64,000 bases of DNA, taken from positions 32,356,368-32,420,367 of the forward strand of contig CP099841.1 in the NCBI GenBank assembly GCA_030062745.1, written 5' to 3'. Positions 12,297 to 15,200 of the stretch are shown piece by piece. Position numbers and translations under genes: made by a program. Every line of letters starts with the position of its first letter. The first letter of the stretch is position 1. Origin of the DNA: Capitulum mitella. Its lineage: Eukaryota; Arthropoda; Thecostraca; Pollicipedomorpha; Pollicipedidae. The notes below the pieces were generated by a model that did not search any database, was not told the DNA's origin, and saw only the letters and a program-made list of their open reading frames with translations.

Positions 12297-15200
12297 GTAA
12301 GTAGTTTTATCATCTTCAGCAGTGTTTCTTCAAATGTTTCTTGAAATGCGCCAGAACTTCATGACTACTGTGAACTTTAATGTTGCAGTTGCTGATTTAG
12401 GGGCATTTGTCACAGGATGAGCAGTGGGCTGAAGTGCACAATTTTAACTTGGCATGTGTGGGTCACAGACACAGATAAGTCTTGTTAACCAGTTTCTGTG
12501 CTTCTTTTACCTGTATTTACTGTTCTCTTGTTGTATGGGACCCTTTTGCTATGCATGTCATGATAGCATGCTATTGTGTTCTGCCATTCTGCAAACAACA
12601 GGTTCACATGATGTCGGTAATCCTTTAGAAGCGGGCGCCATAAACCAAGCACACTGGATGACACATATACGGCGCGCGTGGCAAAAGGAGACGTCAGCTG
12701 TTGCGAGAAACAACAACATTATGCACTGGAGCTCCAGGGTCGTGGATCACCCGCTATTCGCTAACCTAACCTAACCTTACCTAACCTAACCTAACCTAAC
12801 CTAACCTAACCTACTGTGTAAAACAAGAGCGAATAGTTGGTGATCTACGACCTGGAGCTCCAGTGCATAATGTTGTTGTTTCTCGCAACAGCTGACGTCT
12901 CCTTTTGCCACGCGCGCCGTATATGTGTCATCCAGTGTGCTTGGTTTATGGCGCACGCTTCTAAAGGATTACCCATGATGTCTTTGTCAGTCAGAGTTGG
13001 GATAATAAAAAGCCAGGTAGCAGTGTTTTATCGGCTAAAGGTAAGTTTCTGCCCGACGAAATCGCAAACAACCCTTTGTATAATTGCCACCAATGTAAAG
13101 AATGTATCATCCTGTTTCTAACCGTACTTTCCACTACTTAATTTTCTAAACAGTAACAACAAAATCGTAACGATAACGTACCACACTGTAATACCGTGCC
13201 GCAGTCGACTGGCGGAGAACAACATTATTCCGCGGCGGAAAATGTAGTGCCGCCAAGGTTAAGGTTATTGACATCAAGGACGTGTAGACCCTGCATGCAT
13301 CTTCAAGCGATTAATGACGTCATATATAGGAAAATTCTATTCTGTTACCACAAACTGAACTTGGAGGAACTGCTGAATTATTACGCTGTTATATTATTGT
13401 ATTAGATAATTATTGGGATGTCTGATATCAGTATTATTACATTATGACATTTAATACTCGTTAGATTAGGTTGCTAGGTTGGGTTGTGCTGGGCTAGGTT
13501 ACATCAGGTTAGGTTAGCTTAGGTTAGGTTAGGCTAAGTTAGGTTAGGTTAGGTTAGGTTACTATGTTAGGCTAGGGTAAATTTTTATTTATTGTTTTAC
13601 TTCACTTCCTAATATTTTCCAGTTTTGTTCCATGATTTTTTGTGCTGGGCTACGTTAGGTTAGGTTAGGTTAGGCCAGGCTAGGTTAGGTTAGGTTAGGT
13701 TTGGTTACTATGTTAGGCTAGGGTAAATTTTTATTTATTTTTTTTATTTCACTTCCTAATATTTTCCAGTTTTGTTCCGTGATTTTTTTTCAGATATTTT
13801 ATTTCACTGCTTTTTGTTTTTTTGTATTTTTCAAATTGGAACTACGCTTTGCCATCTTTGTAATATTTTCACTTTTTTATTATTATTGTTTATTATTATT
13901 ATTATTACTATTATTATTACTATTATTATTTTTAAACGGTTAACTTCTTTATTTTAAAGATAATTTATATCGCATTAGTTATTCCCCCAAAACTTTTTTA
14001 TTACTCTTGATTGGACCTTGGGGCGGGGGGAATCCGTGGGACCAACAAAAAACCAAAGCGGAAAAAAACCAAAAAAAAAAAAAATTTAAAAGAAAAAAAA
14101 AAAAAAAAAAAACCCGACCGGGGGGCCCAAACCCACAAAAACAAAAAAAAATTTTGGGGGGGAAAAAAAATTTAAATTTGGTTTTTGAAATTGAAAATAA
14201 AAAAATATCAATATTGCATTTGAAATACTGTCAGTTTTTCCCTGGAAGTAAGCGCTCGGGCTGAATCTTACTGTTGACCGTTTTATCAGTGTATTGTATT
14301 TGCCTTAAAACTGTCAGTTATATGATTTTTACTATTTGTACCATTTCTTGCCAGAAAATAAGTTTGGGGCACAAATGCTTTGCACAGCCAGAGCTTTGCA
14401 AATTTTGGATGCAAAAGGGCTAAAATTGAGGCACCACAGCCCACTTTAGGGAAGCAGGTTAGGTCTGGGCTCACATTACCCGTAGTCTTTTCCTAAGAAA
14501 CATCTGTCATTGAGCAGGGAATGGTGCCACTGCACCACAGTTGTCTGAAATGATTCCCATTTCAGAAGAAATACAGCAAAAACTTTGTCAGATTTTTTTG
14601 GGGTTGCAAAATAGAGTGGCCCATATATGCTTGAAAACCTTATTTCAGGGATAGGTTTGGTGGGGGGGGGCTATTTTGGCCAGAAGAGGGGCCTCCCCAA
14701 ATATGTAGTTGATCCTGTAACAGAGTTTGTAGACTGACTGATCTGTCATCATGGTAATGCATTGTGTGACATGGTTCTAATGCCTCTTATTTTTTGTTGT
14801 TTACCCAGTGTTCTTGCAAATGTTAGCTAATGTTTTATGCATGATGAATTTTTATGTGATTATTTGATGTAGAGGAAATGACATTTTAGTATTCTGCAGT
14901 GTTATTTGTGCTCTTCTACAGGGTTGGCAAATGCTTTTTTTTTGGTGTTGAAGAACACCAAAAAATGTGTTCTAAAAAGATGAAAACAGTCTATGCTTGA
15001 AAAGATTGGTCTGATGCCTCTATTGAAAAACTATGATTAGCATGGTGACAAATTTCCAGCTCTGTAAGTATATGACTGTCTCCATTCAGTAAGAGGCAGA
15101 TATGAGTGACATAACTGGATTGCATCAGGAATACCAACTTCAACCAAGTATTACTCTTTGCAAAATTTTATACTCCAGAACAGAAATGGTACTCTCACAC

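Follow-up and report, generated by a model that had tools for sequence, protein, structure and literature searches.

An intron of the MCM6 gene carries a 358-bp hairpin element, located at positions 12616-12973 of the 64-kb stretch of DNA that was analyzed here (the window). Analysis of the sequence revealed two long inverted arms and a central loop filled for the most part by the arthropod telomere motif, and an exact 9-bp direct repeat adjoins either end. Judged from these features, the element is very probably a short DNA transposon, non-autonomous and of the cut-and-paste type, that inserted here once: a MITE or mini-foldback. A first-pass annotation of this DNA had placed a hairpin at the same coordinates; these proved exact, and the hairpin was confirmed by alignment of the arms and by folding. 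The element and its surroundings comprise the following features:

12205-12296, + strand: coding part of MCM6 exon 1, from the ATG to the donor, identified by phmmer and by a translation that joins exon 2 in frame
12297-16372, + strand: MCM6 intron 1, 4076 bp, host of the putative insertion, delimited by GTAAGT...TTTTAG and the in-frame join
12607-12615, + strand: left target-site duplication CATGATGTC, an exact 9/9 match to 12974-12982 that adjoins the arm
12616-12762, + strand: left arm, a terminal inverted repeat of 147 bp with the tip GGTAATCCTTTAGAAGCG, 142 of 147 columns identical to the reverse-complemented right arm
12761-12813, + strand: (CCTAA)n / (TTAGG)n array of 10.6 units with 52 of 53 bases fitting, from TRF and a phase count
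12763-12827, + strand: unpaired loop of 65 nt, made up of 51 nt of array and then the 14-nt tail CTGTGTAAAACAAG (12814-12827), from sequence, coordinates, and fold
12828-12973, - strand: right arm, a terminal inverted repeat of 146 bp, from the arm alignment
12974-12982, + strand: right target-site duplication CATGATGTC, an exact 9/9 match to 12607-12615 that adjoins the arm

Architecture of the hairpin element

The two arms make up 293 of the 358 bp of the element, and its tips read GGTAATCC. The arms had been described as near-identical and 150 bp long; the near-identity is borne out by the alignment, but the measured lengths are 147 and 146 bp. With the right arm reverse-complemented, the columns that are not identical comprise four mismatches and one single-base gap. 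More specifically, one difference is found at position 19, the gap lies near position 122, and three mismatches fall within the inner 25 bp. In ungapped comparison, the outer 123 bp of the arms are 99% complementary with one mismatch, and the inner 25 bp are 88% complementary with three mismatches. When the gap is counted with the inner part, the contrast of 1/123 against 4/25 differences gives a Fisher p of 0.003 for a split that was picked after looking, and it is only a hint that the outer and inner parts of the arms differ in history or constraint.

Folded as single-stranded DNA, the element reaches -187.8 kcal/mol, compared with a mean of -42.6 for its shuffles (z = -35), and none of 100 shuffles folded as well. 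The arms have no tandem direct repeats, just short words that recur, such as CACTGGA and AACAACA, and the array at 12761-12813 is the only tandem one listed for the element. Furthermore, no ORF of at least 110 aa in the ORF list of the window overlaps the element, and the longest listed + strand frame across it is a 108-aa stop-to-stop stretch at 12448-12771. As a whole, the element combines terminal inverted repeats, abutting target-site duplications, and a short length without a transposase gene, three of the features by which MITEs are recognized.

The host intron of MCM6

Counted from the first base of the donor, the element starts 319 bp downstream. The intron opens with this GTAAGT donor at 12297 and closes with a TTTTAG acceptor that ends at 16372, after which exon 2 continues in frame. 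When the joined 80 residues were compared with MCM6 chains of the PDB using phmmer, the best matches were 22vt_6 at E = 7.5e-26 and 6raw_6 at E = 1.1e-25, the latter with an alignment that starts at residue 1. We take 22vt_6 and 6raw_6 to be human and fly chains. Downstream of MCM6 exon 1, Pfam identified MCM domains in three further ORFs. The location within an MCM6 intron, as proposed earlier, can thus be specified as intron 1 on the strength of the in-frame exon join and the phmmer matches. Further downstream, the stop-to-stop ORF at 29434-30816 carries a DNA-repair metallo-beta-lactamase domain, with DRMBL above its cut-off and Lactamase_B_2 just below its own; this gene downstream of MCM6 probably encodes a nuclease of the Artemis/SNM1 type.

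Transcripts of the intron would contain both arms, which would pair with each other along some 146 bp. This would suit a hairpin with a host function, for example as a source of double-stranded RNA from the MCM6 intron that is processed to small RNAs. Pairing arms are, however, a property of any intronic hairpin MITE, and no Rfam family was found at its gathering score in the window. Among the readings considered here, we regard a host function as the most improbable.

Target-site duplications and the insertion reading

The two copies of CATGATGTC stand directly outside the last paired bases of the arms, and the inverted symmetry ends at the same base. The next base pair outward from the arms is C/C and is unpaired. 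Due to this exact coincidence between the start of the duplications and the end of the symmetry, we read the structure as a transposon insertion. The first-pass annotation had likewise proposed a MITE-like insertion with perfect 9-bp duplications on both sides, and the 9/9 identity of the abutting copies agrees with both claims.

By simple arithmetic, a chance match of nine given bases has a probability of about 4e-6. As a control, the window was searched for 9-mers that recur identically at a spacing of 367 bp, and these were found at 34 of 62,824 other start positions. All 34 matches fall within 45065-45143, inside an (AT)n-rich 375-bp tandem duplication.

The best reading of the CATGATGTC duplications is a 9-bp staggered cut made by a transposase, as suggested by the sequence. 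A transposase encoded elsewhere would have bound the ends of the arms and cut the target with a stagger of 9 bp, and gap filling at these cuts would have given rise to the duplication. The left flank also contains an ACAT-G-ATGT palindrome, which is offset by one from the duplication. A preference for palindromic targets was considered and dropped, as four pairs match by chance at 1/256.

Searches for further copies

No second copy of the arm was found in the window, where a search with the 18-bp tip that tolerated as many as 3 mismatches hit only the two ends of the element itself. A blastn search of the element against the window (E up to 1) returned the element itself, TTAGG tracts, and one 13-bp match at chance level (E = 0.78). 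Three patterns taken from the arms (18, 23, and 24 bases) had no exact match in viral_contigs, and neither had the 24- and 23-base ones in genome_contigs; both collections consist of viral, bacterial, and archaeal DNA, so that absence there says little for an animal element.

Two other inverted structures of the window were examined as similar elements and rejected. The hairpin at 10737-10887/11131-11283 aligns over 153 columns at 86%. TC-rich and (TA)n runs lie between its arms or at them, and the left copy of its best duplication, 7 bp long, is separated from the arm by 33 bp. The inverted pair at 462-1632/2020-3163 spans 1.2 kb at 69% with a duplication of at best 6 bp, and is perhaps an old repeat present twice in opposite orientation. 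In addition, about 1.1 kb is directly duplicated at 8216-9342 / 9596-10712, with a spacing of 1.37-1.38 kb and listed ungapped blocks that are 77-88% identical.

The single copy seen in the 64-kb window would be expected if the hairpin were not a transposon, and had instead formed by local inverted duplication (foldback replication) with flanks that repeat by chance, or as a hairpin artefact of the assembly. The region at 14020-14150, about 1 kb away, contains short A, C, and G runs and looks like low-quality assembly, which points in the same direction. In contrast, the exact 9-bp direct repeats adjoin both ends of the element at the very base where the symmetry stops, an arrangement that neither a local inverted duplication nor an assembly hairpin is likely to yield. 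A read-through artefact would give identical arms and no such repeats, whereas the arms differ at 5/147 columns. Such a non-transposon origin is very unlikely in our view, and the insertion of a short DNA transposon remains the preferred reading.

CpG content and age of the insertion

The CpG-rich arms had previously been contrasted with a CpG-depleted intron. This description is correct for the 5' flank, which is CpG-poor, but fails for the 3' flank, which is as rich in CpG as the element itself. While 21 CpGs are found in the element, none occurs between 12349 and the left junction, where a CpG is located at 12615. The observed/expected ratio of CpG is 0.98 for the element, 0.72 for the 1-kb left flank, and 0.95 for the 1-kb right flank, and lies between 0.84 and 1.30 in 28 of 32 2-kb bins of the window. 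Since the right flank is nearly as rich in CpG as the element and most bins fall in this range, the CpG argument alone cannot date the insertion, and the contrast is a weak sign of a recent jump.

Other features bear on the age as well. The GC content of the arms is 0.53 and 0.50, compared with 0.41 and 0.42 in the 300-bp flanks, and this higher value, together with the CpG-free left flank, agrees with foreign DNA in an older intron. The identical duplications, the arms matching at 142/147 columns, the 21 CpGs, and the CpG-free left flank agree with an insertion that is younger than the intron. The arm differences at 5/147 columns lend no support to extreme youth.

CpG is patchy in intron 1 as a whole. 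The CpGs at 14481 and 16437 are consecutive, with a spacing of 1956 bp, and the segment 14451-16330 contains 1 CpG against about 64 expected. A second long stretch without internal CpG extends over 28166-29438, with a CpG-to-CpG spacing of 1272 bp. The first of these stretches ends 64 bp into MCM6 exon 2, and the second ends at the start of the ORF at 29434-30816. Both are perhaps long-methylated DNA.

The telomeric loop and its origin

The array fits (CTAAC)n at 52/53 bases, corresponding to about ten CCTAA units with one substitution, and its first two bases (CT) are at the same time the last two of the left arm. The earlier description of the loop as (CCTAA)n therefore holds for most of its length. 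From the motif, which is known as the arthropod telomere repeat, and from the MCM6 start, we infer that the host is an arthropod with TTAGG as its own telomere repeat. Because the array sits between ends that a transposase would recognize, it would travel with the element, and about ten units of TTAGG would be set down wherever a new copy inserts.

We think it most likely that, at the hairpin center of an ancestral copy, the array either came in with telomeric DNA that was captured or added as a break or gap was repaired, or grew in place by slippage. The slippage of a short seed and a join with telomeric DNA are equally possible.

Outside the element, TTAGG/CCTAA tracts occur in the window at 6211-6230 and 13499-13722, from which it follows that the genome has dispersed TTAGG arrays. 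In the crayfish Pontastacus, FISH revealed interstitial TTAGG signals on eight pairs of chromosomes (PMC7859515). Among the pentanucleotides of Penaeus monodon, AACCT stands out, with 131 loci detected in fosmid ends totaling 11.1 Mb, and it was noted there as the arthropod telomere motif (PMC3124438). The tract at 6213-6240 was considered as a relative of the element and rejected, as it has just a few bases beyond the array in common with it (CCTACTGTAT against CCTACTGTGT) and lacks arm sequence. In the same intron, 0.5 kb downstream of the element, a 146-bp unit occurs twice in tandem at 13460-13790, and in both copies a degenerate (TTAGG)n run precedes sequence that starts with GTTACTATGTTAGGCTAGGGTAAATTTTTATTTATT.

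The tracts at 6211-6230 and 13499-13722 also favor an explanation in which the element is an ordinary MITE with an incidental pentanucleotide microsatellite. The array would then have arisen or grown by slippage in this copy, and would be neither a feature of the family nor derived from telomeres. This explanation draws further support from the very high abundance of AACCT in Penaeus monodon (PMC3124438) and from the tandem arrays known within MITEs (PMC6947457, PMC12628747). On the other hand, the array begins where the pairing ends and fits the motif at 52/53 bases, an observation that is silent on other copies. We consider an incidental microsatellite to be a substantial possibility, though less likely than not.

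A further alternative is that the loop stems from telomerase or telomeric capture. TTAGG would have been added to a broken half-element, which then folded back on itself or was joined with another arm; the hairpin would thus be a product of break repair that later became mobile as a unit. At telomeric insertions at breaks in mouse, rat, human, and chimpanzee, in-register nucleotides were found in 67-80% of informative loci (PMC2246262). The left arm of the element also ends in CT, in register with CCTAA, but this 2-nt overlap is a weak sign that is expected by chance at about 1/16. Some telomeric insertions at repaired breaks carry target-site duplications, and the excerpted text of that study makes no mention of inverted arms (PMC2246262); by analogy, such duplications can also count against the transposon reading of the element. 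Overall, an origin of the hairpin by break repair appears unlikely to us.

Transposase and superfamily

Of the 126 ORFs listed for the window, 17 distinct ones were chosen for a Pfam scan, and none of these matched a transposase. Domains of the MCM and DNA-repair metallo-beta-lactamase kinds were matched by four of them, and the other 13 had no match. The duplication of 9 bp, within the range of about 8-10 bp, and the long terminal inverted repeats correspond to the characteristics of Mutator (MULE)/Foldback elements. With this duplication length and with arms that cover most of its length, the element fits the Mutator/Foldback group best, an assignment we hold to be somewhat more probable than its opposite; a duplication of 8-10 bp is not exclusive to this group, and duplications of 8-9 bp can also be given by other superfamilies such as Merlin, hAT, and P.

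The foldback Tetris has duplications of 8-10 bp and was placed in Mutator on that ground, and most foldbacks seem to belong to Mutator, with exceptions (PMC4079207). When the same reasoning from duplication length is applied to the 9 bp found here, the element comes out as most likely Mutator/Foldback-like. Because its arms are devoid of Tetris-type tandem repeats and no transposase is tied to it, we call it a MITE of uncertain superfamily, which would work like a mini-foldback.

A candidate vehicle for telomeric repeats

Reviews include carriage by transposons among the origins proposed for interstitial telomeric sequences (PMC6410037, PMC9693754). With its exact duplications and its almost pure telomeric loop, this structurally complete element is a concrete candidate for such a vehicle, since an array between transposase-recognized ends must travel along, and it makes the carriage idea directly testable. 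The seeding of interstitial telomeres by the element is plausible. A wider proposal, which we put forward tentatively and with considerable doubt, is that a dispersed MITE family with a conserved telomere-repeat loop acts as a vehicle that plants interstitial telomeric tracts. Such a family would explain, at least in part, the dispersed TTAGG arrays reported from crustacean genomes, and would give telomere-binding proteins and recombination many internal landing sites. If the loop is private to this copy, the case is that of an ordinary MITE with a microsatellite.

Comparison with known systems

The closest kinds of the element are known, namely array-bearing MITEs, foldbacks, and the TBEs of Oxytricha. 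Array-bearing MITEs were reportedly described by Coates et al. 2011 for the (GTCY)n MITEs of insects, by Hikosaka and Kawahara 2004 for Xstir of Xenopus, and by Scalvenzi and Pollet for miDNA4 of Xenopus. MITEs are known to capture or grow internal arrays, as exemplified by (GTCY)n MITEs, Xstir, and miDNA4 (PMC6947457, PMC12628747). Like these, the element is a short, non-autonomous inverted-repeat element with an internal tandem array. Unlike in these, the array consists of the motif of arthropod telomeres and takes up the loop of an almost complete hairpin, and one copy is known. Among the matches listed from a search of open-licence literature, no MITE with a telomeric loop was named in titles and abstract openings, and the excerpted texts of PMC7998251, PMC2826372, PMC6532368, and PMC2944182 likewise contain no such MITE or anything similar.

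The element shares with the foldback Tetris of Drosophila virilis its long inverted repeats, the lack of a transposase in known copies, a duplication within 8-10 bp, and internal tandem repeats (PMC4079207). In Tetris, however, the tandem repeats are located in the arms next to a variable middle domain, while here the arms are without an array and the array forms the middle. The TBEs of Oxytricha are also DNA transposons with built-in host telomeric repeats (PMC4724952). In contrast to the loop position observed here, the telomeric repeat of TBEs lies in the terminal inverted repeats, with TBE2.1 as an exception in form. Furthermore, the duplication of TBE1 is 3 bp long (ANT), and TBEs encode a Tc1/mariner transposase (PMC4724952).

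Finally, the element resembles the interstitial telomeric sequences that result from break repair in having a short telomeric array inside a chromosome (PMC2246262). Those arrays entered, in a single step, sequence that already existed and was unrelated to them (PMC2246262), whereas the array described here is enclosed by inverted arms and duplications.
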